Positions 29,919 to 44,008 of a DNA stretch of 50,881 bases are shown one piece after another. Source of the stretch: an uncultured Lachnospiraceae bacterium (lineage in GTDB: Bacteria; Bacillota; Clostridia; Lachnospirales; Lachnospiraceae); contig CAMWLV010000007.1 in the NCBI GenBank assembly GCA_947175175.1, positions 1 to 50,881 on the forward strand, written 5' to 3'. Below the pieces are notes generated by a model. The model saw only the letters and a program-made list of their open reading frames with translations. It was not told where the DNA came from and ran no database searches. The position numbers and the translations under genes were made by a program. Every line of letters begins with the position of its first letter. Within the stretch, counting starts at the first letter, position 1.

Positions 29919-29981
29919 ATAAAAAGATATTGACATTTTAATATTCGTATTTTATAATCTTATTATCAGATATATAATAAG
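29919..29981 (+). promoter_or_regulatory. Promoter-operator module A (nicotinamidase/TerY-P arm)
   Basis: TTGACA (29930-29935), 17-bp spacer, TATAAT (29953-29958). Upstream flank ATAAAAAGATATTGACAT is identical to module B (35877). Nine bases after the start of the -10, ATTATCAGATATATAATAAG (29962-29981) matches module B at 17 of 20 positions in the same register. It also contains the inverted repeat TTATTAT-n7-ATAATAA. A shared repressor, plausibly the NrtR-like protein at 42876, is inferred. Confidence 0.75.
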
Positions 29982-30000
29982 AAAGCAAGGAGGACTTATC

Positions 30001-30915
30001 TTGAATACAAATTACGCAGATATTGTAAACGTAAATGCAATTGGAAGGGCGGAGAATCCTGTTTCCCTGAACAATATCTTAAAAAGGGCAAATGACGAAC
30101 AGCTCACGCCATCAAAACAGAACAAGGAGAGAGTGTTGTTTATCGGTATTGATGTGCAGCAGGATTTTATGGATCATGGAGCGTTAGGAGTTCCTGGTGC
30201 ACACGGTGATGTGGAGCGCATGACACAGTTTATCTACAACAATATGGATAGCATATCCAATATTGCAGTATCAATTGATACGCACACACCGCATCAGATT
30301 TTTCACCCCTGCTGGTGGGTGGACGGGGACGGCAACAATCCGGCTCCGTCCACGCCAATTACGCTGGCGGATTTAGACAGTGGCAAGTGGAAGGCGGTTA
30401 TCAATCCGATTGCATCGAGAGATTATGTGGAACATTTGGAGAAAGATGGAAAGAAGACATTGTGCATATGGTCATACCATTGCATTCAGGGTACTGCCGG
30501 GTGTGCACTGGAAAATCAGTTTTCCAACATGGTTTATTTTCATTCTGTCGCCAAGAAATCGGTCGTGCAGAGACTGGTCAAAGGACAGGACCCGCTCTCT
30601 GAAATGTACGGAATGATAAAATCAGAGTATGACACAAAAGGATATGTCAATCTTGATTTTCTGAATAAACTGGAGAACTATGACAAGATTGTGGTCGCTG
30701 GGGAGGCGAAGAGTCATTGTGTGCTGGAGAGTATTAAGCAGATACTGGAGTATTATGGGACGAGACCGGAAATTACGCAAAAGATTTATATTTTGGAGGA
30801 CTGCATGTCATCAATTCCTGGTTTTGAGGCAGTGACAGACCAGACATTTGTAGAATTTAAGAAAAAATATCATGTAAACATAGTAAACAGTACAGATGAC
30901 ATATTAGCGCGATGA
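30001..30915 (+). CDS. Nicotinamidase-like cysteine hydrolase (isochorismatase superfamily)
   Basis: 304 residues. The fold core runs from VLFIGIDVQQDFMDHGALGVPGA, with the catalytic Asp in IDVQQDF; a metal-ligand run IDTHTPHQIFH resembles the D-x-H...H of nicotinamidases; the nucleophilic Cys is in GEAKSHCVLESI. HCIQGTAGC matches the HCxxGT substrate-loop motif. It is longer than PncA (about 180-210 residues) because of a ~45-residue N-terminal extension and a central insertion. Predicted reaction is nicotinamide to nicotinate plus ammonia, though related amides are possible. Start is TTG at 30001, 7 nt after AAGGAGG. First gene of the arm with the VWA/PP2C/kinase triad. Confidence 0.8.
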   Translation: MNTNYADIVNVNAIGRAENPVSLNNILKRANDEQLTPSKQNKERVLFIGIDVQQDFMDHGALGVPGAHGDVERMTQFIYNNMDSISNIAVSIDTHTPHQIFHPCWWVDGDGNNPAPSTPITLADLDSGKWKAVINPIASRDYVEHLEKDGKKTLCIWSYHCIQGTAGCALENQFSNMVYFHSVAKKSVVQRLVKGQDPLSEMYGMIKSEYDTKGYVNLDFLNKLENYDKIVVAGEAKSHCVLESIKQILEYYGTRPEITQKIYILEDCMSSIPGFEAVTDQTFVEFKKKYHVNIVNSTDDILAR

Positions 30916-30992
30916 GAGGTATAGGAAAATACTTCGGTGTCTGAATAGTTTCTAAGAATGTGTAATTATGGGATATAAGGAGGAATTGCGGC

Positions 30993-31676
30993 ATGAGCGA
31001 ATTTGAAGATAATATTGGAATGGAAATTGACGGACTCGAGGAAATCGAGTTTGAGAACACTTCCGTAGAGGAGATTGACAGCGAAAACATTAACTTGATT
31101 TTTCTGGGGATAGACCAGTCAGGTTCCATGGATTCCTTTCGCAATGACATGAAGCACAGCCTGAATGAGTTCAAGGATGCGCTGGCCAACTCGAAGGAGG
31201 CGGAGGAGATTCTTGTCGCGAGGGCGGATTTTGAGGACACGATTGCGGTTGGAGGGTACAAGAGGATCAGCGAGTTTGATACGTCTTTCAGGGCTGGCGG
31301 ATGCACTGCCATGTATGATGCAGTCACAGAAGGTACAGTGAAATTAAAAGAGTACAGACAGTATCTGAAAGATCAGGGTGTGCGGGTAAAGGCGGTATTT
31401 GCGGTCTTTAGCGATGGGCTTGACAATGCATCGAAGAGCAGCTTCAGCGAGGCAAAGAAAAGTGTCAATTTCCTGAATGATGAGGAGATCACGACGGCGT
31501 TTATCAGCTTTGGCGGGGAGGCGGCAAGGGAGGCAAAAGACTTAGGTTTTCGCAATATTCTCGATGTCACAAGCTTTGCAAGCGAGTTACGGAAGGCGTT
31601 TGACTGTCTGTCAAAGTCCGTGATCGAGTCATCGAAATCCGTATTGGCTGACGGAGATGACTTTTTCCAGATTTAG
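30993..31676 (+). CDS. VWA-domain protein (TerY-like)
   Basis: 227 residues. A von Willebrand factor A domain with an intact MIDAS: DQSGSM (Asp41, Ser43, Ser45), the threonine in GGCTAMYDA (Thr105) and the aspartate in FSDGLDN. The ~35-residue N-terminus is strongly acidic. Cytosolic (no signal peptide). Together with the PP2C and kinase genes that follow by 37 and 99 bp, it forms the three-gene set known as the TerY-P triad in tellurite-resistance-related stress operons. The predicted role is a metal-dependent adaptor. Start follows AAGGAGG. The end of the gene carries a weak TTAGGAACTGC motif. Confidence 0.87.
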   Translation: MSEFEDNIGMEIDGLEEIEFENTSVEEIDSENINLIFLGIDQSGSMDSFRNDMKHSLNEFKDALANSKEAEEILVARADFEDTIAVGGYKRISEFDTSFRAGGCTAMYDAVTEGTVKLKEYRQYLKDQGVRVKAVFAVFSDGLDNASKSSFSEAKKSVNFLNDEEITTAFISFGGEAAREAKDLGFRNILDVTSFASELRKAFDCLSKSVIESSKSVLADGDDFFQI

Positions 31677-31713
31677 GAACTGCAAAAATGATTCCCAAAT
31701 AAGGGAGGTATCT

Positions 31714-32349
31714 ATGTTTGTAAATAAAATTGGTGCGCAGCATCTTGCATTCGGAAGGAATTGTCAGGATTACGGACTGGAAAAAGAAACAGTAAAATTG
31801 GTGTGCGATGGCTGTTCGGAGGGGGCGCACAGCGAAGTCGGGGTAAAAATGTATTGTCATCTGTCGGAACTTGGCTATAGTACAAAGCAGATCTTTAAAA
31901 GATTAACCGGCATTTTTGGGCAGTCGTCAGCATCAATCAGGGATTATCTGTGTTTTACAATATTAAAAGTGATAGAAACTGAGAATTTTTTCAAGGTTTC
32001 GTATTGCGGAGATGGTTATCTCATTTTGGAAGATTTGGAGGGCGGCATTTCATTTGAAGAGCTGAGTGATGGTGAATATCCGAAATATTTTGCTTACAAT
32101 TATTGTGATGCAAAGATGCTTACTTATTATAAAGATGGTGTTCGGTTTACGGAACAGAATTTTTCAAAAAGGACATATAAGAATGTAGGTATTGCGTCAG
32201 ACGGACTGCGGTTTATCGTGAAGTCAGAGAATGAAACGTTAAAGGCAGAATTAATCGGGCTGCTAAAGGCGGGCAGGGCAGTTGGGGTCAAACGGTTTAT
32301 CAACCGCAATCAGAAATTGTTTCAGGACGATATCACAATTGTATTTTGA
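31714..32349 (+). CDS. PP2C-type protein phosphatase
   Basis: 211 residues. Matches short bacterial PP2C proteins: QHLAFGRNCQDYGLEKETVKLVCDGCSEGAHSEVG holds the metal-binding Asp-Gly pair, then FKVSYCGDGYLI, GIASDGL and the terminal DDITIVF. Expected to reverse phosphorylation made by the kinase encoded next. ATG 31714 follows AAGGGAGG; the frame opens earlier inside the VWA gene but without a start signal. Lacks membrane segments. Confidence 0.85.
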   Translation: MFVNKIGAQHLAFGRNCQDYGLEKETVKLVCDGCSEGAHSEVGVKMYCHLSELGYSTKQIFKRLTGIFGQSSASIRDYLCFTILKVIETENFFKVSYCGDGYLILEDLEGGISFEELSDGEYPKYFAYNYCDAKMLTYYKDGVRFTEQNFSKRTYKNVGIASDGLRFIVKSENETLKAELIGLLKAGRAVGVKRFINRNQKLFQDDITIVF

Positions 32350-32448
32350 AAATGGTTTTTGGAATAAGCACTATTTATAAATAGTATATATCTATAAGTG
32401 ATTTCGAAATAGTTCCTACAGTTCCTTAGACAGCAGAGAGGATTTTGT
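32350..32448 (+). repeat. Repeat remnant in the PP2C-kinase gap
   Basis: Contains the 14-nt perfect palindrome CTATTTATAAATAG (32371-32384) and, inverted, the repeat end CTACAGTTCCTTAG (32416-32429), matching the MITE terminus at 22880. No gene. Confidence 0.5.
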
Positions 32449-34152
32449 ATGAGTGTAGTATATGATTGCGCAAATAAGACACCACTGGCAGAGGGTGGTG
32501 AAGGTGTGATTTACGAGTACAATGGGCAGGTCATAAAAGTTTACAAGCCAGGTGCAAACCTGCAGTCGAAACAGAATAAAGTGCAATGGCTGATCCGAAA
32601 ATCACTTTCCGGTCTGCTCCCCCAAGAGGTAGTCTGCCCAAGGGATATTGTTGTGGATAAGGGCGGGGTATTTATCGGCTTTTCCATGGATAAGGTGGAA
32701 GGAGAAGAAGTAAAAAAACTTGCAAACCGGAAGTTTTTAACGGCAAATAATATCACCACAAAGGACATCATATCGATGCTGGTGAAAATACAGGAGGTGA
32801 TCAGCAGACTCCATGACAATCACATTTTTATCGGTGATTTAAACGACCAGAATATTTTGTTTGATGAGCAGTTCCGTGTTTATTTTATTGACTGTGACAG
32901 CTGGACAGTGGAGAATGAAAAGTGTGAGGTGGCGATGGATTTATTCAAAGATCCGTTGTTGCGGTCTAATGATTTTGATGCCGGTACAGATACTTACTCC
33001 TTTGCCATTCTGATATGGAAACTGCTGACGAGAATACACCCTTTTGGCGGTACCATGGATCCTGACATGAATATTATGGAACGGATGAGGAACGGGATTT
33101 CCGTCATTGATAATCCCCAAGTTACGATACCCAGGACGATAAAGTCATGGAGAAATTTATCTCCGTCCTTGATCGGTGCGTTGCAGCGTATTTTTCGGAA
33201 TCAGAGCAGGGAGTTGTCCGACGAGCTTTCCGAGCTGTTGGGCAGCCTGAAATATTGCAATGTCGACCAAGAATATTATTATGGAAAATATGGAACTTGT
33301 CCGCTGTGTGACCGCAATGCCAGGATACAGACAAAGCCGCAGTCGCAGGGAGTCGTGGACGGACTAAAACTATCCGCACTATTCTCTGCTAAGGATATCA
33401 AGACAGTGTTCAACGAGACGATATATTTAGACCAAAAGGATGAGATTGTCGAACTTCGTCAGGGCAGAAGGGTGAAATACCAATACGGTGTCCGATACTA
33501 TTTTACATCTGACGGTTATCTGATTGAGGACTTGTCAGGGGAATTTGTGATTCATTCGGGAAAAGAGTACAGGATTCAGAAAAAATACAAGAGTCGTATT
33601 GTTGTGGAGGGCAGTCATGTTTATTATATCTCTAAGCAGAACTCGTTTACGGATATGACTGTCTTAAAAATAGGGAACAGCATCAGGCCTGTCTGCAAGT
33701 GCAGTAATACGTCTTATTTTGAAGTAAGTGATGGCAGCTATTGTGTTCTGAATTACTATTGCGGAAAGCTGATCTTGACAATGAATGGGACAAATATGGA
33801 AATAGAATATGACACAGATATTATTTATTATGGGATTCACTATGATGATATTGTGTCGAAATGGCTGATACTTTTGGAGGACAGTGCTGGAACTGATCGA
33901 ACATACGTGGTCAGTGGCAGGAGGATTGAGTACGAGACTGACCAGATTTCTTATCAATGCCCGTTGAGTGCACCATGTATCAGCAACAGCACACTCTATA
34001 TACCTATTGACGGAAAAATCAGAGGTTTTTCCTATATTAAATCGGTATATAAGGATTTTGCATGTGATGTTGTGAACAGTGATAGCACATTGTTAAAAAG
34101 AAAAAACCAGTTTGTGATCGTCAATGATGAGAATGTGTATCGATTGGGGTGA
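32449..34152 (+). CDS. Ser/Thr protein kinase with Zn-ribbon half-site (TerY-P triad kinase)
   Basis: 567 residues. N-terminal kinase domain: Gly-rich loop AEGGEGVIY (14-22), Lys30 in VIKVYK, catalytic loop IGDLNDQNIL (Asp130) and metal-binding DCD (148-150) in place of DFG. After it a CPLC pair (Cys284, Cys287) could be half of a zinc site. The last ~270 residues are beta-rich (repeated short strands, possibly a propeller-like or WD-like sensor domain) with no named family. No membrane segment, so cytosolic. Third gene of the VWA/PP2C/kinase set. Start follows GAGAGGATTT; strong downstream hairpins lie at 34183. Confidence 0.87.
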   Translation: MSVVYDCANKTPLAEGGEGVIYEYNGQVIKVYKPGANLQSKQNKVQWLIRKSLSGLLPQEVVCPRDIVVDKGGVFIGFSMDKVEGEEVKKLANRKFLTANNITTKDIISMLVKIQEVISRLHDNHIFIGDLNDQNILFDEQFRVYFIDCDSWTVENEKCEVAMDLFKDPLLRSNDFDAGTDTYSFAILIWKLLTRIHPFGGTMDPDMNIMERMRNGISVIDNPQVTIPRTIKSWRNLSPSLIGALQRIFRNQSRELSDELSELLGSLKYCNVDQEYYYGKYGTCPLCDRNARIQTKPQSQGVVDGLKLSALFSAKDIKTVFNETIYLDQKDEIVELRQGRRVKYQYGVRYYFTSDGYLIEDLSGEFVIHSGKEYRIQKKYKSRIVVEGSHVYYISKQNSFTDMTVLKIGNSIRPVCKCSNTSYFEVSDGSYCVLNYYCGKLILTMNGTNMEIEYDTDIIYYGIHYDDIVSKWLILLEDSAGTDRTYVVSGRRIEYETDQISYQCPLSAPCISNSTLYIPIDGKIRGFSYIKSVYKDFACDVVNSDSTLLKRKNQFVIVNDENVYRLG

Positions 34153-34307: not shown

Positions 34308-35507
34308 CTATATAGATGCACTATAATCAGAGGCAGCAGGTATATTGTAGGATGCGTTGGATGTATATCCGCTCGCTGCGCTTGCGTTCGTGTTCATATA
34401 GTAGTTCACGCGGGATGCGTTGCTGGCAACATAAGAACCATAATCTTTGAAGAAGTTTTGTACCTTGCTCATATCGGACTTCTTAAAGGTGTCCTCGTCG
34501 AGTTTCATTCTGCCATTTTTATCTACGCTAAATCCAAACTCTTCCAGTGCTTTTGTGTTGTTTTTCGTCTTTTCCCTAATGTAAGACAGGTTTGACAACA
34601 CGCCGGAATTAGAGCTTGATTCAGCGGCATCAAACATTTTGTTGTAATTGCTCACGAAACTCTTTGCTGTGGAAAGGATTTTGTCAACATTATAGGTTTC
34701 ATTGCCATCTTTGTCTTTTGTTTTCGCATACAATTCGCTGGACGCAAGAGCCTCGCTGTCTGTCTTGAGAGCCGCAGCACTTGTTCCCTTTGAAGTTGTG
34801 GTCTCTGTGGTTGTGTTATTTGTCGTAGAGCTCGTGCTGGAACTGCCGCCTGCAAACTTAACACGTGAGGAAATCGTAGAACCATAGCTCTGAATATTGT
34901 CTGCTGAAAACAGCTTTTGCACTTTCGAGATGTCAGCGCCCTTCAATTTGGTTTCATCAAGCTGAAGTGTTCCGTCTTGTTTGAGTGTTACGCCAATTTC
35001 CGCGAGTTCTTTTGCATTCTTAGAGGTAGCACTCATCATGTTTGCCACATATGCAGTTTTGTTTGTAAGCGTAGAGCTCTTGGACGCCGTTACAACGTTA
35101 TTGTAATTCGTCACATAAGATTTCATTGCAGAAACAACTTTATCCGCTGCAGTCGAACCATTCTCCGTATCCTCATAAGTGCTGCTTTTCTGCAGTGCGG
35201 AAACCGATGACTGCAGGCTGTTAAGTCCTGAAGTCAGGTTGGAGTTTGCTTCTTGTGTTTCCTTGGAAACAGTGGGATACATTTTCTCCTTAAGCAGCTT
35301 ATCAATAATATTGTTAGAGCTGCGGTTCTTCTTGGCTGATGTTGTCCCGTCTGAATCGCTTCCCACAGAATTAAAGTAGGATTTGAGCAGTCTTTTGTAT
35401 GTACCATTCTTTATGGAAGCTCTTTCGGAGAACAGGCTGTATAAGTTGGATGAGCTGTTTGAGGTGCCAGATCCAAACAATGAGTTTGTTGAATTCCAGA
35501 AATTCAT
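34308..35507 (-). CDS. FliD-like repeat protein, Ser/Thr/Asn-rich
   Basis: 399 residues of low-cysteine, Ser/Thr/Asn/Lys-rich sequence without signal peptide. Two copies of a ~100-residue module are visible: VVSAMKSYVTNYNNVV ... ELAEIGVTLKQDGTLQLDETKLKGADISKVQKLFSADN and ILSTAKSFVSNYNKMF ... ALEEFGFSVDKNGRMKLDEDTFKKSDMSKVQNFFKDY. This pattern (coiled helix, YN, G-[IV/F]-x-DGxLxLDE, VxxLF) is that of the C-terminal domain of the flagellar cap FliD. No other flagellar genes are nearby. Start at 35507 follows GAAGGAG by 8 nt. It lies opposite to both NAD-related arms. Confidence 0.7.
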   Translation of the reverse strand: MNFWNSTNSLFGSGTSNSSSNLYSLFSERASIKNGTYKRLLKSYFNSVGSDSDGTTSAKKNRSSNNIIDKLLKEKMYPTVSKETQEANSNLTSGLNSLQSSVSALQKSSTYEDTENGSTAADKVVSAMKSYVTNYNNVVTASKSSTLTNKTAYVANMMSATSKNAKELAEIGVTLKQDGTLQLDETKLKGADISKVQKLFSADNIQSYGSTISSRVKFAGGSSSTSSTTNNTTTETTTSKGTSAAALKTDSEALASSELYAKTKDKDGNETYNVDKILSTAKSFVSNYNKMFDAAESSSNSGVLSNLSYIREKTKNNTKALEEFGFSVDKNGRMKLDEDTFKKSDMSKVQNFFKDYGSYVASNASRVNYYMNTNASAASGYTSNASYNIPAASDYSASI

Positions 35508-35663
35508 ATTCATCACTCCTTCACAAAATATAATATCATTTATATGTTACTATTATTTTATACTGTTATGCCTCAAAAATCAATCGCTTTTCATGGATTT
35601 TCTATCCAATTTTAGTTATAAAGTTACTGCTCACTCCCCATCAAAGTAGTGGGAATCGAGCGC

Positions 35664-35783
35664 CAAAATGCTAAAAGCTTTAGCTTTTTCCCTTTAGCAT
35701 TTTGTGTGCATAAATGTTATTATTCAGATATCCGCAAAGTATTGGGTCATAGATAATAGAAGCAAAGCTGTAAAAGCTTCTAT
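35664..35783 (+). ncRNA. Reduced copy 3 of the junction element plus hairpin
   Basis: CAAAATGCTAAA (35664-35675) pairs with TTTAGCATTTTG (35693-35704), enclosing AAAAGC-TTTA-GCTTTT and a TTCCC strand; the P2 arm is missing. GTGTGCAT follows at 35704-35711 exactly as in copy 1. A further hairpin ATAGAAGC / GCTTCTAT is at 35756-35783. Also, frame reading at 35729-35755 gives DIRKVLGHR, reminiscent of a tyrosine-recombinase C-terminus; this is weak. Confidence 0.45.
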
Positions 35784-35876
35784 AGATAGAATATCGGTTT
35801 ATAAATGGAAATATTTAGTGTATGGCAAATAATTTAATAAATTTTTTGTCTGAAGAGATCACTTATTATTAAATTA

Positions 35877-35939
35877 ATAAAAAGATATTGACATGAGTAA
35901 AATTATATGCTATATTGATATTATCAAATAAATAACAAG
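35877..35939 (+). promoter_or_regulatory. Promoter-operator module B (NAD salvage arm)
   Basis: TTGACA (35888-35893), 17-bp spacer, TATATT (35911-35916). The flank ATAAAAAGATATTGACAT (35877-35894) is identical to module A. ATTATCAAATAAATAACAAG (35920-35939) aligns with module A in the same position relative to the -10. TTGATA-T-TATCAA (35915-35927) is a perfect palindrome at the end of the -10. Same length (63 nt) as module A. Confidence 0.75.
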
Positions 35940-35988
35940 TTAAAAGTACAAAACCTGTAAAATGAAAATAGGAAGGAATAGGATTCGT

Positions 35989-36504
35989 ATGAAAAAAGTA
36001 TTAATAGTCGTAGATATGCAGAAGGATTTTATTGATGGGTCATTGGGGACAAATGAGGCTGCTGCCATCGTGGACAATGTGGCAGAGTTCGTCAAGTCCT
36101 TTGACGGGGAAGTGATCTTCACAAGGGATACGCACGATGACAATTATCTGGAGACACAGGAGGGCAGAAATCTTCCGGTAGTGCACTGCATTAAGGGAAC
36201 TGACGGATGGCAGCTCGACAAAAAACTGGAAGTGCTCAAAACGGATTCCATGAAAGTATTTGATAAGCCCACATTTGGTTCTGTTGCCCTTGCGGAGTAT
36301 TTAAAAACGGACAATGCAATTGAAAGTGTTACGCTTGTAGGACTCTGTACGGACATCTGTGTCATATCCAATGCACTGTTGATCAAGGCGAACATGCCAG
36401 AGGTTGAAATCAAGGTCATAGAAAAGTGCTGTGCAGGCGTCACGCCGCAGAGCCACGCGAATGCACTTGAAGCTATGAAGATGTGTCAGATCAAGATTGT
36501 GTAG
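35989..36504 (+). CDS. pncA: Nicotinamidase / cysteine hydrolase
   Basis: 171 residues of the isochorismatase-like superfamily. Catalytic Asp in VVDMQKDFIDG, metal-region FTRDTHDDNY, substrate loop HCIKGTDGW, and nucleophilic Cys in GLCTDICVISNAL. Predicted to hydrolyse nicotinamide to nicotinate. ATG 35989 after GGAAGGAATAGG is chosen because the hydrolase fold begins at residue 2; 35962 is also open. First gene of the NAD salvage arm, driven by module B. It shares only superfamily-level motifs with the larger hydrolase at 30001, so the two are not a recent duplication. Confidence 0.85.
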   Translation: MKKVLIVVDMQKDFIDGSLGTNEAAAIVDNVAEFVKSFDGEVIFTRDTHDDNYLETQEGRNLPVVHCIKGTDGWQLDKKLEVLKTDSMKVFDKPTFGSVALAEYLKTDNAIESVTLVGLCTDICVISNALLIKANMPEVEIKVIEKCCAGVTPQSHANALEAMKMCQIKIV

Positions 36505-36625
36505 TCATCAGTTACATGCATCAAAATATTGTTCGTCGGGCATATTGACAGGAATGTATTGATGGGCTGTATTGAAAAGATGCTGTTTTATACGACAGGC
36601 TTGTGTGGATAAATGGAGGTGTAGG

Positions 36626-37438
36626 ATGATAAGGTTGAATAATAAAAAGGTTGGTATCAATTATTTTCCAGACGGAACACTCTTATTAAAAGAAGCAATA
36701 ACCGATACAGATGATAAGAATGCAGTAATTGAAATCAAATGGAATTATGAAAATAACGAGGAGCTTCTTGTAATATATTTCCTCACAAAGCATATTCAGG
36801 CGGCAGGGTATCACAATCTTATCTTAAATATGCCTTATATTCCAAACGCAAGACAGGACAGGGTGAAAAATCCAGAGGATGTGTTTACACTCAAATATTT
36901 TGCGGAGTTTATCAACAATCTGGACTTTGCAGAGGTAAGAGTACTGGACGCGCATTCTCATGTGAGTCTTGCGTTGATTGACAGGGTAAGGCAGGATACA
37001 CCGCAGAAATATATCGAGAAAGTGATAGACGAGATTGAGCAGGACACTGGCAAAAAGCCACTAATGTTCTATCCAGACGAGGGTGCAGGGAAGCGGTATA
37101 GTGGCATGTTTCCGCTTCCCTATTGTTTTGGCATCAAGAAACGTGATTGGAGCACAGGGGAAATCCAGGGTCTTTCCGTTGCAGGCGAGACAGATCGAAT
37201 TGCTGGAAATGATGTGTTGATCGTGGATGATATCTGTTCCTATGGCGGAACCTTTATCCACTCAGCGGAGATATTAACGTCGCTTGGAGCGGCGGATATT
37301 TACCTTTTTGTGAGTCACTGTGAGGATTCCGCACTTAAGGGAAAGCTTTGTGAATGTGGCAATATCAAACAGATTTATACGACAGACAGCATCTTTCGTG
37401 ACAAGGAAAACACAAGGATTAAAGTGTTTGAATTGTAG
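36626..37438 (+). CDS. PRPP-synthetase-like phosphoribosyltransferase-fold protein (possible Adps)
   Basis: 270 residues resembling ribose-phosphate pyrophosphokinase but shorter (typical Prs about 315). Visible family motifs: the PDGTLLLKE opening, MPYIPNARQDRV (ATP/flexible region), VLDAHSHVS with the metal-binding His, and the phosphoribosyl-pyrophosphate loop VLIVDDICSYGGTF. It lies 24 bp before the NAMPT-like gene. The same two-gene pair in phages (NARP1) encodes Adps, which pyrophosphorylates ADP-ribose, and Namat. Either R5P to PRPP or ADPR to ADPR-PP activity is possible from sequence. ATG 36626 is preceded by GGAGGTG; the frame runs open to 36572. Confidence 0.82.
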   Translation: MIRLNNKKVGINYFPDGTLLLKEAITDTDDKNAVIEIKWNYENNEELLVIYFLTKHIQAAGYHNLILNMPYIPNARQDRVKNPEDVFTLKYFAEFINNLDFAEVRVLDAHSHVSLALIDRVRQDTPQKYIEKVIDEIEQDTGKKPLMFYPDEGAGKRYSGMFPLPYCFGIKKRDWSTGEIQGLSVAGETDRIAGNDVLIVDDICSYGGTFIHSAEILTSLGAADIYLFVSHCEDSALKGKLCECGNIKQIYTTDSIFRDKENTRIKVFEL

Positions 37439-37462
37439 TGTTTTTATAATGGAGGGATTCAG

Positions 37463-38941
37463 ATGAAGAAGACAAACCCAATGCTTTTGATCGATTTTTA
37501 CAAGGCAGTGCATTCTGACATGCTGCCTGAGAAGACAGAGAAATCGGTATCTTATTTTACACCGCGCATGAGCAGGGTAAAAATGTGGGATAATGTAGTC
37601 ATGTTTGGATTACAGGCATTTATCAAGACATATCTGATGGAATATTTTCAAGAGGAGTTTTTTGACAGAGCGCTTGGTGAGGTGGTCGGTGAGTACGACA
37701 GGGTGCTTGGAGCTGCATTGGGCAAAAAGGCTTATAATACTGAAAAAATAGAAAAGCTTCACAGACTAGGTTATCTTCCAATAGAAATCAAGGCACTCCC
37801 GGAAGGAACAAGAGTTCCGATGCATGTGCCAATGTTTGAGATTAGCAATACACACCCTGACTTTGCGTGGCTTCCGCAGGCATTGGAATCCCTGGTCAGC
37901 GCGGAGCTGTGGCACCCGATGATCAGCGCTACGGTCGGCGCGACATACAGGGAAATTGTCAATAAATATTACGATATTTCGGTAGATGATGCGGTGTCAA
38001 AAGCAAGGGCATTGGGCGATTTTTCATTTCGCGGTCAGGAGTGCTTACAGTCCGCAGTAAAGTCCAGTGCAGGCTGGTCTTTATCTTTTTTGAATACAGC
38101 GACAGTTCCAGTGATACCATTTCTGGAGCAGATGTATTGCTGTGACTGTACCAAGGAGCCGGTTGCTTTCGGCGCTGTCAGTACAGAGCATTCCGTGATG
38201 TGCAGCAATTACGCTGTCGACGGCGACGAGATTACACTTCTGCGCAGGCTCCTCACAGAGATTTATCCTGACACGAGCTTTTCCGCAGTGCTTGATTCCT
38301 ACGATTACTGGAATGTCATTGACAATGTGCTTCCACAGCTGAAAGAGGAGATTTTAGCGCATAATGGCTGCATGCTGATGCGCGGCGACAGTGGGGACTG
38401 TGTGGAGGTCGTGACGAAAACGGTATTCAAATTGTGGGATATTTTTGGCGGAACCGTAAACGCTAAGGGATATAAAGTGCTTGACCCGCATGTAAAGGCA
38501 ATCTACGGAGACAGTATTACCATACAGAGATGCAAGGCGATTTATCAGATTTTGATCGAGAATGGTTTTGCGTGCAGCAATGCTGCGCTGGGTGTGGGAA
38601 GTTTCAGTATGCAGTGCATCGAGGAGGAAGATATGTTGAAGCCGTTTACAAGGGATACATTCAGTTCTTGTATCAAGGCGACTTACTGTGAGGTGGACGG
38701 CAGACCGATTCCTATTTTCAAGGATCCGAAAGACGGCGGATTCAAGAAAAGCCAGAGGGGAATGTGCCGCGTGTACTGCGATGAAGGCGGGAACCTGACC
38801 TTTCAGGACGGTTACACGAGCGAGGGCATAACTGGCAAAGAAAACATGTTGGAAGTCGTATTCCGGGATGGGATGCTTGTGAAAGAGCAATCACTTGCGG
38901 AAATCAGAGCAAGGCTCAACAACGGAAATTTTGGAGGCTGA
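37463..38941 (+). CDS. nadV: Nicotinamide phosphoribosyltransferase-like protein (NadV/Namat type)
   Basis: 492 residues, the length of NAMPT rather than of nicotinate phosphoribosyltransferases. Matching segments include YFTPRMSR, TEHSVMCS (catalytic His region), SAVLDSYDYWNVI, MRGDSGD (Asp of the active site), YKVLDPHVKAIYGDSI, GVGSFSMQ, PIPIFKDPKDGGFKKSQRG and a C-terminal VFRDGMLVKEQSLAEIR. It should join nicotinamide to PRPP giving NMN, or, if NARP1-like, to ADP-ribose pyrophosphate giving NAD+ directly. Start follows GGAGG. The next gene begins 1 bp after its stop. Confidence 0.88.
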   Translation: MKKTNPMLLIDFYKAVHSDMLPEKTEKSVSYFTPRMSRVKMWDNVVMFGLQAFIKTYLMEYFQEEFFDRALGEVVGEYDRVLGAALGKKAYNTEKIEKLHRLGYLPIEIKALPEGTRVPMHVPMFEISNTHPDFAWLPQALESLVSAELWHPMISATVGATYREIVNKYYDISVDDAVSKARALGDFSFRGQECLQSAVKSSAGWSLSFLNTATVPVIPFLEQMYCCDCTKEPVAFGAVSTEHSVMCSNYAVDGDEITLLRRLLTEIYPDTSFSAVLDSYDYWNVIDNVLPQLKEEILAHNGCMLMRGDSGDCVEVVTKTVFKLWDIFGGTVNAKGYKVLDPHVKAIYGDSITIQRCKAIYQILIENGFACSNAALGVGSFSMQCIEEEDMLKPFTRDTFSSCIKATYCEVDGRPIPIFKDPKDGGFKKSQRGMCRVYCDEGGNLTFQDGYTSEGITGKENMLEVVFRDGMLVKEQSLAEIRARLNNGNFGG

Positions 38942-38942
38942 G

Positions 38943-39290
38943 ATGATATTATATAGACCCGTAGGGACAAAGGAGCTGGAATTGATCCGGGACAGCGGCT
39001 ATACAAAATATCCGCCGCGATTGCAGGATCAGCCTATCTTTTATCCAGTATTAAATGAAAAGTATGCGACGGAGATCGCATCACAGTGGAATGTAAAATA
39101 TAACTACGATCACAGAGGTTATGTGACAAAGTTTGAGATTGATGACGCCTATTGCAGCCAGTTTGAAATTCATGTTGTCGGCGGCGCGTATCATCAGGAG
39201 TTATGGGTTCCGGCAGAAGAGCTTGACAATTTTAACCAACACATTATAGGATATATACAGGTGAGCAGTGAATTTTCAGCAGAAGAATAA
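38943..39290 (+). CDS. Small conserved protein of ADP-ribosylation/crystallin J1 annotation type
   Basis: 115 residues, no membrane segment. The sequence (LYRPVGTKELELIRDSGYTKYPPRL, QPIFYPVLNEKYATEIASQWN, GYVTKFEID, VVGGAYHQELWVPAEELDNFN) resembles short proteins often labelled ADP-ribosylation/crystallin J1; I assign this from memory of the pattern, not from a search. The opening YRPV and the later ELWVPAEEL hint at a minimal ADP-ribosyltransferase-like fold, as in proteins that bind or use NAD+, but catalysis is unproven. ATG 38943 follows GGAGG. Located between the NAMPT-like and NadE genes with nearly no spacing, so it belongs to the NAD module. Confidence 0.7.
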   Translation: MILYRPVGTKELELIRDSGYTKYPPRLQDQPIFYPVLNEKYATEIASQWNVKYNYDHRGYVTKFEIDDAYCSQFEIHVVGGAYHQELWVPAEELDNFNQHIIGYIQVSSEFSAEE

Positions 39291-39315
39291 AAAGAAAAAG
39301 GAATGGATTATTAAG

Positions 39316-41268
39316 ATGGAGAACGCATTGAATTTATTTCGGGCAGCAGCCGTAACGCCGCGTGTCCACATTGGAAATGTTGCAAAAAATTGTCAGGAGA
39401 TTATCAAATCATACGATAGTCTTGCAGTGCAATCAGATCTGATCGTGATGCCGGAGCTTTCCCTGACAGGGTATACCTGTGCAGACCTGTTCAGCAACAG
39501 AAATCTGCTGGATATGGCGCGCAAAGGGCTTTATGACCTGACCATGTACACGAAAAAATACGGCGAGAACGGGGCGGCGCTCGTGGTTGGCGTGCCGCTG
39601 GAAAAGGAGGGCGAGCTGTTTAACTGTGCCGCACTGATCCAGAATGGCAGGCTGATTGCAGTCGTGCCAAAAACCTATCTTCCAAACTATGGGGAGTTTT
39701 ATGAAAAAAGGTGGTTCAGTGCCGGAGAACAGGATGCAAAGACAATGGAAATTGCCTGCGGAATGGAAACCTTGCAGACTACGTTTGGCAATAATGTCAT
39801 CATAGAAATCGGTACAGACAAAAAGGTTTGTGTCGGCATTGAGATCTGCGAGGATGCGTGGGCAGCCATCTCGCCAGGACGTCTGCTCGCGCTGAACGGA
39901 GCGGAGATCATTGTCAATATCTCTGCTTCCAATGAGGTAATCGGCAAGGCACAGTACCGGAAAAATATGTTGGGCGCCGCGTCGTCAGGCTGTATCTGCG
40001 GCTATGTATATGTATCTGCAGGGCAGTATGAGTCCACCTCAGACCTTGTGTTCAGCGGACATACATTGATGTATGAAAACGGAAAACTCCTTGGCGAGGG
40101 AAAGCCCTTTAGCGATACGGTGCTCGTGAAAGATTTTAACCTCACCAAGATCAGGCATGACAGGATTGCGAACAAGACCTATTCCGAGTGCAAAAATAAT
40201 TTCTCAATGCGATGCTATGAAAGGCTTACATGCAAAAAGCCGCTTATGGAAAAGAAAGAGCTTCTTGCAAAACTGTCCATCACACCGTTTGTGCCATACT
40301 CAAACCGCAGGGAGCGGTGTCTTGATATTTTTCAGATGCAGGTCACTGCACTTGCAAGACGCATTGAGGCGACAAAGAGCAAATGTGTCGTAGTCGGCGT
40401 GTCGGGTGGTCTTGACTCGACGCTTGCACTGCTGGTATCTGCGCAGGCAGTCAAGAACCTGGGGCTTTCCGCAGACACGGTGACAGGAATCACGATGCCG
40501 GGCTTTGGCACCACAAACCGCACAAAGAACAATTCAATTGAATTGATGAAATATCTGGGATGCACGATCAGGGAAATCAGCATTGCTGACTCGGTGAGAC
40601 AGCATTTCAAGGATATCGGGCAGGACGAGAATGTGCACGATGTCACTTATGAAAATTGTCAGGCAAGAGAGCGCACCCAGATTTTGATGGACGTGGCGAA
40701 CAAGGAAGGCGGCTTTGTCGTCGGAACGGGTGACTTGTCAGAGCTTGCCCTTGGGTGGTGCACATACAATGGAGACCACATGAGTATGTATTCCGTCAAC
40801 ACGAGTATTCCAAAAACATTAGTTCGAACACTGGTGGACGAGGTTGGTCATTTTATGGACGAAAACGGATTTGCCGGAATGAAAAAGGTGATCGAGGATA
40901 TCATCGACACACCGGTAAGCCCGGAGCTGCTTCCGCCGAATGTGGACGGAACGATCGCGCAGAAGACGGAAGAGACCGTAGGTTCCTATATTCTGCATGA
41001 CTTTTTCCTATATTATACGCTGCGGTATGGAATGTCGCCTGCTGAGATCTTCAGCATGTGTCAGGAGGCCGTCCGCCGGAGCAGTGAGTACAAATTCAGC
41101 GATGAGGAAATCTCCAAGTGGCAGAAAGTATTTTATAGCAGATTTTTCAGGCAGCAGTTTAAGCGCAACTGTATGCCGGACGGTGTCAAGGTAGGTTCCG
41201 TGTCAGTGAGTCCGCGTGGGGATTTAAGACTGCCTGCGGAGATTGAGCCGGAGGAGTTTGTGGAGTAA
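39316..41268 (+). CDS. nadE: Glutamine-dependent NAD+ synthetase
   Basis: About 650 residues. N-terminal nitrilase-type glutaminase with the Glu-Lys-Cys triad: Glu47 (MPELSLTGYTC), Lys119 (VPKTYLPNYGEFYE) and Cys178 (GIEICEDAW). C-terminal synthetase with the PP-loop SGGLDS (363-368) and GTGDLSELALGWCTYNGDHMSMYSVN. Converts nicotinate adenine dinucleotide to NAD+ using glutamine-derived ammonia. The ATG at 39316, after AAGGAATGG, is preferred to a GTG at 39268 that lies inside the preceding gene. No nadD is adjacent. Confidence 0.93.
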   Translation: MENALNLFRAAAVTPRVHIGNVAKNCQEIIKSYDSLAVQSDLIVMPELSLTGYTCADLFSNRNLLDMARKGLYDLTMYTKKYGENGAALVVGVPLEKEGELFNCAALIQNGRLIAVVPKTYLPNYGEFYEKRWFSAGEQDAKTMEIACGMETLQTTFGNNVIIEIGTDKKVCVGIEICEDAWAAISPGRLLALNGAEIIVNISASNEVIGKAQYRKNMLGAASSGCICGYVYVSAGQYESTSDLVFSGHTLMYENGKLLGEGKPFSDTVLVKDFNLTKIRHDRIANKTYSECKNNFSMRCYERLTCKKPLMEKKELLAKLSITPFVPYSNRRERCLDIFQMQVTALARRIEATKSKCVVVGVSGGLDSTLALLVSAQAVKNLGLSADTVTGITMPGFGTTNRTKNNSIELMKYLGCTIREISIADSVRQHFKDIGQDENVHDVTYENCQARERTQILMDVANKEGGFVVGTGDLSELALGWCTYNGDHMSMYSVNTSIPKTLVRTLVDEVGHFMDENGFAGMKKVIEDIIDTPVSPELLPPNVDGTIAQKTEETVGSYILHDFFLYYTLRYGMSPAEIFSMCQEAVRRSSEYKFSDEEISKWQKVFYSRFFRQQFKRNCMPDGVKVGSVSVSPRGDLRLPAEIEPEEFVE

Positions 41269-41284
41269 TTGAGCGGAGGTATCA

Positions 41285-42856
41285 ATGGGGAATTATTTGA
41301 ATCCAGGGAACCAGGGATTTAAGGAGTCGGTCAACTCTAAAATATATGTAGACAAAACAAAATTGATATCTTTTACAAATGAATGTCTGAATACAGAACA
41401 GAAATTTGTCTGTGTCAGCCGCCCGCGTCGTTTTGGAAAGTCGATGACACTAAAAATGCTGGCTGCATATTATGGAAATGACTGCGATTCGGGCACATTG
41501 TTTGAATCTTATAAAATTGCAGGTGAGCACAGCTTTGAGGTGCATCTGAACAAGTATAATGTCATTTATATCAATATGGTGGATTTTTTCGATCGGGAGA
41601 AAACAGATGAAATGCTTGATTATTTAAAAGCAGAAATTATGGAGGAGCTGTATGAGAATTATGAGGCATATCTGAGAAGTCGTGATATGGAACTGAGTGC
41701 TGCACTGCAGAAAATATATGCACAAACTGGTAAACAGTTCATATTTCTGATCGACGAGTGGGATTGTGTGATGCGAATCAAGGGCATCTTATTGGAACAA
41801 CAGACAAGATATCTTGATTTTCTGAGAAAGCTTTTAAAGGATAAAACGTATGTTGCACTAGCATATATGACAGGTATTCTTCCAATTAAGAAATACGGGG
41901 AACATTCTGCGCTGAATATGTTTGACGAGTATTCCATGACAAATGCTGTACCGATTTCTGAATTTACTGGGTTTACTGCGGAAGAAGTGAAAGTGCTGTG
42001 TGAGCGTTACAATGTTTCTTATGAGGAGACTCGCAAGTGGTATGACGGCTATACTGTGGACGGGATATCGCTCTACAACCCCAAGTCAGTGGTCAGCGCG
42101 ATGCTGCGGAAACGTTTTGACAGTTATTGGAATTTTACGGAGACGTATGATGCACTTAAAGTATACATCTGTATGAACATGGATGGACTGCGTGACAATG
42201 TCATACGGATGATATCTGGGGAAGAGGTATTCGTTGATACGACCTCTTTCCAGAATGATATGACCACGTTCAAATCGGCAGATGATGTGCTGACACTATT
42301 AATTTATCTAGGGTATCTTACATATGATTTTGCGACAAAGAAAGCAAGGATTCCAAATGATGAGGTGGCGCTTGAATATGTGAAGTCAATCAAAGATGGT
42401 GGCTGGGAGTATGTAATGAATGCCATCAATTCATCACATGAACTGTTGAATGCAACGCTTGCAATGGATGCAGATAAAGTGGCAGAGGTTCTTGAAGAGG
42501 TTCACGCCGATAGTACATCTATATTGCAGTATAATGATGAAAATTCAATTTCCTGTGTGATCTCACTTGCATATTATACGGCGAGAAAAGATTATGTGAT
42601 CTGCCGGGAACTGCCAGCTGGTACAGGTTATGCGGATGTGGCATTTGTGCCGAGACGGGGTGTCACTTTGCCTGCGATTATCGTGGAACTGAAATACAAT
42701 AAATCTGTCGATGCTGCCATAGCCCAGATTTATGACAGGAAGTACATGGAGTGTTTCAAAGATTATTCTGGCAGGATGCTGCTTGTCGGTATCAATTACG
42801 ATAAAAACAGTAAAGGCAAAAAACATAGCTGCGTGATAAAAGAGTGGACAAAATAA
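41285..42856 (+). CDS. AAA-ATPase-like / PD-(D/E)XK nuclease-like protein
   Basis: 523 residues of the AAA-ATPase_like plus PDDEXK_9 type common in Clostridia and Bacteroidetes. N-terminus NPGNQGFKESVNSKIYVDKT, Walker A-like RPRRFGKSMTLKML, Walker B FIFLIDEWDCV, and a C-terminal nuclease-like core FVPRRGVTLPAIIVELKYNKS (E-x-K). Function of this widespread family is unknown; many copies per genome are common. It sits 16 bp after nadE and 19 bp before the Nudix regulator on the same strand, so it is read with the NAD genes, though it is AT-richer and may be inserted. Confidence 0.82.
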   Translation: MGNYLNPGNQGFKESVNSKIYVDKTKLISFTNECLNTEQKFVCVSRPRRFGKSMTLKMLAAYYGNDCDSGTLFESYKIAGEHSFEVHLNKYNVIYINMVDFFDREKTDEMLDYLKAEIMEELYENYEAYLRSRDMELSAALQKIYAQTGKQFIFLIDEWDCVMRIKGILLEQQTRYLDFLRKLLKDKTYVALAYMTGILPIKKYGEHSALNMFDEYSMTNAVPISEFTGFTAEEVKVLCERYNVSYEETRKWYDGYTVDGISLYNPKSVVSAMLRKRFDSYWNFTETYDALKVYICMNMDGLRDNVIRMISGEEVFVDTTSFQNDMTTFKSADDVLTLLIYLGYLTYDFATKKARIPNDEVALEYVKSIKDGGWEYVMNAINSSHELLNATLAMDADKVAEVLEEVHADSTSILQYNDENSISCVISLAYYTARKDYVICRELPAGTGYADVAFVPRRGVTLPAIIVELKYNKSVDAAIAQIYDRKYMECFKDYSGRMLLVGINYDKNSKGKKHSCVIKEWTK

Positions 42857-42875
42857 ATCCATTAAAGGAGATAAA

Positions 42876-43799
42876 ATGAGTCAGACAATAAAAAGTAAAG
42901 ATTTTTTGGAAGCATATGACATTAACCAGTACGACCGCCCGTCCATTGCGGCAGATATTGCGGTGTTCTCCATTGGAAGGAAGATGACAGAGAATTCAGA
43001 TTACCGCAAGCTTCCCACCAAAACACTCCGGCTGCTGCTGATCAAGCGTGCCGAACAGCCATTTCAAGGGGAGTGGGCGCTTCCGGGCGGCTTTATGAAG
43101 AAAGGGGAAACCATACAGGAGACCGCCAGGCGCGAGTTGAAGGAGGAGACTGGTACGGACAAGGCATATCTTGAACTGTGCAATGTCTTTAGTGACAGTG
43201 GGCGTGATCCCAGAGGATGGATCATCTCACAATCCTTTATCGCAGTGCTGAATGAGGACGATCTTGCAAACGGACATCTCGAGGCAAGCGGTGATGCCGG
43301 CGAGGCAGGATGGTTTGATATCACAGTGCAGAAAATTGCAGACAAAAAGCAGGAGCAGGATAATGTTGTCACCTGCGACAATGACTATGAGCTGCTGTTG
43401 CAGGGCAGTGGGATATCAGACGAAAATGCGGCTGTCAAGCTTCGGGCAGTGATCAGGGAACACATCGAATATCGTGATTATCATGAGATTGTTACATATG
43501 ATATCACGGATTCACAGGGGATTGCATTTGACCATGCCAAGATTATCACCAGTGTCTTTAACCGGCTTCGGCGAATGCTTGCGAGCGATATACGAATTGC
43601 CTTTGACTTTATGCCAGAGTATTTTACCTTGACAGATCTGCAGGAGGCGGTGGAGCTGATATCAGGTCAGGAACTGATCAAACCCAATTTCCGCCGAAAG
43701 ATCGCAGAGTATGTGATCGAGACAGACATCGTGGCACAAAATGGAGGACACAGACCGCCAAAGGCGTTCGTCAGAAACCTTGAACGGTTTTATCAGTGA
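42876..43799 (+). CDS. Nudix domain plus winged-helix regulator, NrtR-like
   Basis: 307 residues. N-terminal Nudix domain with an intact Nudix box GGFMKKGETIQETARRELKEETGT, and a C-terminal ~110-residue winged helix (SVFNRLRRMLASDIRIAFDFMPEYFTLTDLQEAVELISGQ ... NFRRKIAEYVIETDIV). This is the architecture of NrtR, the repressor of NAD genes that responds to ADP-ribose. The intact box means hydrolysis may also occur. Last gene of the salvage arm; the likely candidate for binding the repeated promoter modules at 29919 and 35877 (inference). Start follows AAAGGAG. Confidence 0.85.
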   Translation: MSQTIKSKDFLEAYDINQYDRPSIAADIAVFSIGRKMTENSDYRKLPTKTLRLLLIKRAEQPFQGEWALPGGFMKKGETIQETARRELKEETGTDKAYLELCNVFSDSGRDPRGWIISQSFIAVLNEDDLANGHLEASGDAGEAGWFDITVQKIADKKQEQDNVVTCDNDYELLLQGSGISDENAAVKLRAVIREHIEYRDYHEIVTYDITDSQGIAFDHAKIITSVFNRLRRMLASDIRIAFDFMPEYFTLTDLQEAVELISGQELIKPNFRRKIAEYVIETDIVAQNGGHRPPKAFVRNLERFYQ

Positions 43800-43961
43800 G
43801 TAAGTTGTCAATCCCCCGATATGCGTTTTCCACAGCTGTCCAGCGTTTTCTATGTAATTTGTGAATTGTCAAAAAAGAAACAACATTTGTTTATTAAAAC
43901 TGTGAAGCAACGTGATTAAACGCATAAACATAATATGTTGCTTAATATAAACAACAGTGCA

Positions 43962-44008
43962 TTGACTCCAATAATAGTATGTGATACTCTATAAGAGATG
44001 AGTATCAC
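43962..44008 (+). promoter_or_regulatory. Promoter with 9-bp palindromic operator
   Basis: TTGACT (43962-43967), 17-bp spacer, TACTCT (43985-43990). GTGATACTC (43981-43989) and GAGTATCAC (44000-44008) are perfect inverted repeats with 10 bp between them, covering the -10 and expected +1. Likely repressor site for the small membrane protein genes. Confidence 0.55.

Follow-up and report, generated by a model that had tools for sequence, protein, structure and literature searches.

The window analysed here, the whole 50,881-nucleotide stretch of contig 7 (CAMWLV010000007.1) in the 4.1 Mb assembly of an uncultured Lachnospiraceae bacterium (GCA_947175175.1; completeness 86.5%), encodes an operon comprising, in order, a nicotinamidase, a phosphoribosyl pyrophosphate (PRPP) synthetase (Prs)-like kinase, a nicotinamide phosphoribosyltransferase (NAMPT)-like protein, a small open reading frame (ORF), a glutamine-dependent NAD synthetase (NadE), an ATPase and a regulator of the NrtR family. 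The named relatives nearest to the window are likewise Lachnospiraceae assemblies. The kinase and the transferase are related to Adps and Namat, the enzyme pair of the NARP1 pathway, which in Paenibacillus foliorum forms NAD+ from ADP-ribose pyrophosphate (ADPR-PP) and nicotinamide, both in vitro and in vivo (PMC12774641). The operon probably (at a rough probability of 0.68) encodes a deamidating, NrtR-linked variant of NARP1 that would serve as an ADP-ribose recycling loop. In this loop the nicotinamidase would convert released nicotinamide to nicotinate, the Adps-like kinase would produce ADPR-PP from ADP-ribose and ATP, and the Namat-like enzyme would couple ADPR-PP to nicotinate in a single step, giving deamido-NAD (NaAD). 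NadE would then amidate NaAD to NAD+, making an adenylyltransferase for nicotinate mononucleotide (NaMN) or nicotinamide mononucleotide (NMN) dispensable, while a repressor of the NrtR type would allow the operon to be switched on as ADP-ribose accumulates. The comparisons below show the kinship of both enzymes, the altered active site and the conservation of the operon and of operator-like sites, whereas the identity of the two substrates and of the product and the response to ADP-ribose are inferences; nicotinate as the acceptor appears more certain than ADPR-PP as the donor in the branch to which the window protein belongs.

Family placement of the kinase and the transferase

An earlier note on this DNA had pointed to a 270-residue Prs-like and a 492-residue NAMPT-like protein, encoded 24 bp apart, as a possible NARP1-like pair, and had named a grouping with the classical Prs and NadV families as an outcome that would overturn this. 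The ORF coordinates agree with the arrangement described: the ORF at 36572-37438 on the forward strand contains an internal ATG at 36626 from which a 270-aa Prs-like protein is read, and GGAGG lies just 5' of the ATG of the NAMPT-like gene. The kinship also held when the grouping was checked, as neither protein fell with the classical families.

The NAMPT-like protein contains NAPRTase (PF04095, 3.9e-19) and NAMPT_N (PF18127, 1.1e-7) domains and clears the cut-off of the NCBIfam model PRK09198, named nicotinate phosphoribosyltransferase (431 bits, cut-off 405). The Namat of phage SPbetaL1 clears the same model (594 bits), so that the name cannot separate Namat-like from ordinary enzymes. Among solved chains, the window protein scores 392 bits against 9w5x/9w5w (SPbetaL1 Namat; a stretch of 9w5x is letter for letter that of the SPbetaL1 gene in locus L105), 318 bits against 9ke8 (a stretch of which is letter for letter that of the Haemophilus ducreyi NadV in locus L152), 170 bits against 7yqo, the Xanthomonas enzyme and the next bacterial NAMPT-type chain in the score list, and about 157 bits against NAMPT of the human type. 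A maximum-likelihood tree was built from 42 rows with the trait columns removed; human and Xanthomonas NAMPT are not among its rows, and three NAMPT-type plasmid proteins form the outgroup. The Namat branch (39 rows) is supported at 100/100, and within it the window protein belongs to a clade of 23 representatives (100/99) nested among Namats. The protein is not of the PncB type, scoring 14.3 bits against TIGR01513 (cut-off 297), a model against which the genome's own PncB scores 557.7.

In the Prs-like protein the Pribosyltran domain (PF00156, 1.8e-6) was detected, and two Prs domains were matched below their cut-offs. Its score against TIGR01251 (95.8 bits) lies under the cut-off of 113, as does that of SPbetaL1 Adps (106), while two other genes of the window genome clear this model and represent ordinary Prs. 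The protein shares 38.9% identity with SPbetaL1 Adps, against 18-21% with the Prs of Escherichia coli and the two Prs of its own genome, and the tree joins it to SPbetaL1 Adps in a clade supported at 100/99 that excludes these three Prs. Only this main split of the tree is used, since long branches meet and the finer order is unsure. Two motifs are common to the Prs-like protein and SPbetaL1 Adps but not to these Prs, namely GA-x-KRYS after PD and the loop DD-I/L-C/S-S-x-GGTF; some phage Prs-like proteins in the tree are without KRY and have loops resembling CDGGGTF. The structure of Adps is still to be solved (PMC12774641).

Ordinary synthesis of PRPP and NMN by a Prs and a NadV is what the database names would suggest, as these read ribose-phosphate diphosphokinase (below its cut-off) and nicotinate phosphoribosyltransferase. 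The proven NARP1 pair receives the same names, however, the classical family includes neither protein in the comparisons above, and a nicotinamide contact has been lost; this explanation was rejected on the structure-chain scores and both trees, and its chances are minimal.

The acceptor pocket

Nicotinamide is contacted in Namat by F189, R192, D215, A242, R306, D13' and Y15', with D215 forming a hydrogen bond to it (PMC12774641). The equivalent D219 of human NAMPT contacts the amide, and human NAPRT has a serine there that helps nicotinate specificity; further determinants besides this position are needed as well (PMC4442680). D219 is described as fundamental for specificity (PMC7096376), and human H191 is placed in a hydrogen-bond network with D219 (PMC4186856). 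Positions are given below in Namat numbering. The window protein carries alanine at 215 and serine at 242, while the other five contacts are kept.

Homologs scoring above 120 bits were found in 211 loci, of which 160 were kept; 51 were dropped before counting (48 repeated places or loci with short flanks, and three with frames below 420 aa: L087, L144 and L146). The 160 loci hold 157 distinct sequences over the last 450 residues, with the repeats L058/L059, L063/L139 and L142/L143. An NF006629 search of 398 genomes of the phylum yielded one far homolog (L125; D215/A242), which scores below 120 bits and is excluded from the 160. Alanine (136) or serine (5) occupies position 215 in 141 of the kept loci, all with S242, while the remaining 19 have Asp or Glu at 215, combined with A242 in 18 and H242 in one. 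In all representatives read, five of the seven nicotinamide contacts are identical, and 215 and 242 differ throughout the clade. The A/S215 group forms one clade, and the tree implies a single origin of the acceptor change. The altered pocket is present in all Clostridial genes of the Namat branch for which these residues were read, as well as in some viral contigs.

Comparison of the 23 clade representatives with the 16 other Namat-branch representatives gave six of 467 columns with disjoint residue sets (181, 187, 215, 239, 240 and 242). Two contact columns are among them (hypergeometric p 0.003, computed post hoc and with columns taken as independent), and position 187 corresponds to human H191 by an offset of four. 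As 215, 242 and 187 are included, the changes that define the clade cluster at the nicotinamide site.

Together with the nicotinamidase and NadE encoded in the operon, A215 indicates nicotinate as the acceptor and deamido-NAD as the product. The earlier note's scheme, in which nicotinamide is the acceptor and NAD+ is formed directly, is not supported by this comparison, as the Asp that holds the amide is replaced and a nicotinamidase and NadE are encoded in the operon. A classical NARP1, in which ADPR-PP and nicotinamide would give NAD+ directly and the nicotinamidase and NadE would serve other salvage, draws on the placement of both enzymes in NARP1 branches and on the demonstrated activity of the Paenibacillus system (PMC12774641). 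Against it stand the replacements at 215 and 242, which extend across the clade, the retention of Asp or Glu in homologs whose locus has no nicotinamidase (L172, L219 and the two cut contigs being the exceptions), and the competition for nicotinamide that an adjoining nicotinamidase would create, making this alternative improbable.

Conservation of the locus

Of the 141 A/S215 loci, 137 contain a nicotinamidase, 140 a Prs/Adps-like gene, 103 NadE, 96 NrtR and none NadD; of the 19 D/E215 loci, 14 contain a Prs/Adps-like gene, five give NrtR-like matches, and none has a nicotinamidase, NadE or NadD. Many loci end at contig ends, and the lower gene counts are therefore minima. A repeat search of the D/E215 loci with a profile built from 183 nicotinamidase sequences was also negative; 13 of these loci have at least 3 kb on both sides. 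In L040 and L054, two of the four A/S215 loci lacking a nicotinamidase, the contig ends about 1 kb 5' of the NAMPT-like gene, and L227, the locus without a Prs/Adps-like gene, is a cut contig. Nicotinamidase, Prs-like and NAMPT-like genes occur together in 77 of 79 related loci, with L040 and L054 as the exceptions. NadE is of the long glutamine type in the close kin of the window and of the short type in most relatives; one short NadE each was read in L065 and L018.

The acceptor change and the link to the nicotinamidase amount to one change and one independent pair on the tree. The link between residue 215 and the nicotinamidase is thus one evolutionary event that has long been maintained, not many independent ones, and a Fisher value of 1.3e-22 (137 versus 2 with cut contigs dropped; 0 versus 19), which takes related rows as independent, is not evidence.

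The donor site and the Preiss-Handler alternative

The adenine clamp of Namat consists of R40 and a helix motif with F392 and Y396, followed by TRD (PMC12774641). In the window protein R40, F392 and TRD are kept, while Y396 is replaced by Cys and Y394 by Met, and nine residues are inserted before TRD. This insert is conserved, with the end P[FY]TRD in 97 and EE in 93 of 100 insert-bearing homologs. In homologs from several Ruminococcus assemblies, R. albus among them (L075, L076, L078-L080, L083, L092 and L098), the clamp motif has a length of 32 rather than 15, and both ends of this long insert are conserved.

A sister family was also found, 39 of its 43 matches being 56-60% identical to SPbetaL1 Namat; of the 43, 40 were retrieved as one set of loci and two (L171 and L172) separately, with G950 left out. 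In 38 of the 40 loci, a clamp motif of standard length, mostly GSYTYQYNTRD, is combined with A/S215 and S242, and a nicotinamidase is present in 37 of these 38, its gene lying between the Adps and Namat genes in 35. This branch, with its full clamp, provides the strongest case for the predicted use of ADPR-PP with nicotinate. The use of ADPR-PP in the window branch is less sure, its basis being R40, F392, TRD and a partner of the Adps type.

The altered clamp bears on the alternative of a Preiss-Handler route with a borrowed enzyme, in which the Prs-like protein would make PRPP, the Namat-like protein, having reverted to PRPP, NaMN from nicotinate and a NadD encoded elsewhere NaAD, with NadE finishing the synthesis. 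This alternative is favoured by the loss of Y396 and the insert in the window branch, by the H. ducreyi NadV (L152), a member of the branch in which E40, Q392 and R396 show that the clamp is open to loss, by the formation of NMN from PRPP by Namat itself in vitro (PMC12774641), and by the presence of NadD above its cut-off in 49 of 60 genomes, the 60 including the window's own. In the other direction, the retained R40 and F392 are the pair whose double mutant suffers the worst loss in Namat (16.6-fold, compared with 4.3-fold for F392/Y396 and 2.4-fold for R40/Y396; PMC12774641), the insert is strongly conserved and not decaying, and the partner is of the Adps type, with a Prs/Adps-like gene in all but one of the A/S215 loci. 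NadD is also not found in the 160 loci, and a second PRPP and NaMN route would be redundant beside the PncB (647.8 bits against a cut-off of 469) and the two ordinary Prs encoded elsewhere in the genome. The Preiss-Handler explanation is thus unlikely, though it is the rival to be taken most seriously.

The earlier note had reported that the cluster lacks an adenylyltransferase, and for NadD this extends to its relatives: a phmmer search with the NadD of one relative, a query that recovers eight of eight NadD loci, matched none of the 160 kept loci. NadD above its cut-off was not found in the window's own assembly either, which its 86.5% completeness may explain. A role of the loop in standing in for an absent NadD was rejected: four of the 19 genomes with a Namat-like match (G000, G001, G008 and G032) are without a NadD above its cut-off, as are seven of the 41 others.

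Several observations weigh against the proposed deamidating loop. The altered clamp makes the use of ADPR-PP less sure in the window branch than in the sister branch; among the 23 clade representatives, residue 40 is Met in two, Lys in one and Gln in one; and clamp residues alone are no proof of donor use, because a clamp transplanted into human NAMPT did not yield a Namat (PMC12774641). Two A215 loci with full flanks (L172 and L219) are without a nearby nicotinamidase, and 38 of the 141 A/S215 loci are without NadE in the stretch covered. As the link arose once, the association of the residue with the nicotinamidase cannot be tested across independent origins. Finally, the frequency of NadD in the genomes means that the loop would supplement the usual route and is no substitute for NadD.

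Regulation and operon features

The features of the operon are given in Table 1. The palindrome TTATTATCAANTTGATAATAA was derived from L026 and L028 and, with up to three mismatches, occurs at two sites in the window against 0.02 expected; the site at 35863-35883 was known beforehand and that at 29960-29980 was unforeseen. The 79 related loci contain 35 sites (two being the source sites), 33 of which adjoin the 5' end of nicA or nrtR, while reversed sequences contain one. The site at 35863-35883 is directly 5' of a near-consensus promoter, itself the best of 27 promoter-like sites in 35400-44000 (17.6 expected from shuffles). This conserved position fits a role of the palindrome as operator of the operon, to which NrtR is presumed to bind. 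The regulator combines a Nudix domain and an NrtR winged helix, both above their cut-offs, and scores 125 bits against the NrtR equivalog NF050029 ('ADPR responsive transcriptional repressor'), far under its cut-off of 400. NrtR proteins are known to respond to ADP-ribose. The domains, the operon context and the operator-like sites together support the earlier description of a chromosomal NAD module with a Nudix regulator, which is of the NrtR type.

Table 1. Features of the predicted NAD operon in the window.
Feature	Position	Strand	Basis
Operator-like palindrome, perhaps bound by NrtR (predicted)	35863..35883	+	matches TTATTATCAANTTGATAATAA with at most 3 mismatches
Promoter-like TTGACA-17-TATATT	35888..35916	+	11/12, TG before second hexamer; consensus match only
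Nicotinamidase (PncA-like), predicted to convert nicotinamide to nicotinate	35962..36504	+	PF00857, 6.4e-30
Adps-like protein, predicted ADP-ribose pyrophosphokinase	36626..37438	+	clade with SPbetaL1 Adps, 38.9% identity
Namat-like transferase (492 aa), predicted nicotinate ADP-ribosyltransferase	37463..38941	+	Namat kinship and pocket residues
Codon of R38 (Namat R40), clamp residue stacking on adenine	37574..37576	+	alignment; role from PMC12774641
Codon of A213 (Namat D215, human NAMPT D219), amide contact lost	38099..38101	+	alignment
Codon of S240 (Namat A242), second altered pocket residue	38180..38182	+	alignment
Clamp helix motif GSFSMQCIEEEDMLKPFTRD	38597..38656	+	F381 (Namat F392), Cys for Y396, conserved 9-residue insert before TRD
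Small protein without assigned family	~38943..39290	+	starts 1 base past the Namat-like stop
Glutamine-dependent NAD synthetase NadE, predicted to convert deamido-NAD to NAD+	39268..41268	+	PRK02628, 764.5 bits
ATPase	41285..42856		matches found only in L022 and the window
NrtR-family Nudix regulator	42876..43799	+	PF21906, 3.4e-16; NUDIX (PF00293), 1.6e-18

The top solved relative of the nicotinamidase is 1ilw (58 bits), named pyrazinamidase/nicotinamidase, and NadE scores 391 bits against 3dla. The small protein encoded at 38943-39290 gave no match in Pfam or NCBIfam up to an E value of 0.1 and none of significance in the PDB, and the 131-aa ORF was rejected as a recognisable enzyme, having no significant match in these three databases. 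Homologs of the small protein occur in the operons of only some close relatives; in L076 the homolog is located 5' of the gene.

The second palindrome (29960-29980) is situated 20 bp 5' of a gene for a 304-aa nicotinamidase-like protein (30001-30915), which is followed by vWA-like (30993; the name is a sequence reading), PP2C-like (31657) and kinase (32449) genes. Together they form a signalling cluster spanning 29960-34152 that may be part of the same regulon. Homologs of the vWA-like, PP2C-like and kinase genes also occur 5' of nicA in L025, about 2 kb away.

Comparison with known systems

As in the NARP1 systems of SPbetaL1 and P. foliorum, the two gene families are adjacent in the window and the kinase gene comes first. 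The catalytic core is conserved relative to the SPbetaL1 sequences, which were those compared, and R40, F392, T398, R399 and D400 are kept. Unlike NARP1, the window has A/S in place of D215/A242 and a clamp with an insert and no Y396, its operon adds the nicotinamidase, NadE and NrtR, and the predicted product is NaAD rather than NAD+. The Preiss-Handler pathway (PncA, PncB, NadD and NadE) similarly begins with a nicotinamidase, shares the predicted acceptor nicotinate and ends with NadE. In the window, PncB and NadD would be replaced by one ADP-ribose-fed step, and the transferase belongs to the NAMPT family.

The NadV of H. ducreyi plasmid pNAD1 (PDB 9ke8; L152:3759-5246) falls in the same Namat branch. 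Unlike the window protein it keeps D215/A242, and it has lost the clamp and has no adjoining Adps gene. This NMN-forming protein thus resembles a Namat that has naturally returned to the use of PRPP. A row of Prs-like, TerD, Namat-like (D215) and NADAR genes on a Curtobacterium plasmid (L154:4308-7925) is possibly another NAD/ADP-ribose repair cluster.

Viral contigs

Among the kept loci, fourteen contigs from IMG/VR carry the A215/S242 kind, as does the gut phage record MT835544 (L101), and the variant may thus also serve phages. Nicotinamidase, Adps-like, Namat-like and NadE genes are carried by the viral contigs L131-L143 and L145 and by the human gut phage L101. Ten neighbour proteins of L101, L131 and L133 were compared, six of which match phage families, mostly of unassigned function, one of the six being a tail-related RNA ligase in L133. 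Over the part read, L139 is identical to the Clostridium locus L063, so that host DNA or predicted prophage may account for some of the viral contigs.

Implications for NAD metabolism in gut Clostridia

A bacterial NARP1 active on nicotinamide has already been published (PMC12774641). A limited literature search of titles and abstract openings found no nicotinate variant of NARP1 and no nicotinate ADP-ribosyltransferase among the matches listed. If the proposed route is true, the last step of NAD synthesis would have a new chemistry in which NaAD is formed without NaMN and without NadD, in a loop linked to a regulator whose family senses ADP-ribose. The purpose of bacterial NARP1 would also become testable, as the product expected from this acceptor differs from NAD+ in mass, and the two-residue signature A/S215 and S242 separates the two kinds by sequence. 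Models of gut NAD metabolism that use the NCBIfam names would err at this step, because these names are ribose-phosphate diphosphokinase and nicotinate phosphoribosyltransferase. On balance, gut Clostridia may well possess an adenylyltransferase-free, ADP-ribose-fed deamido NAD cycle, built on a nicotinate ADP-ribosyltransferase of single origin, which would repair NAD after its cleavage by NADases or ADP-ribosylating enzymes.

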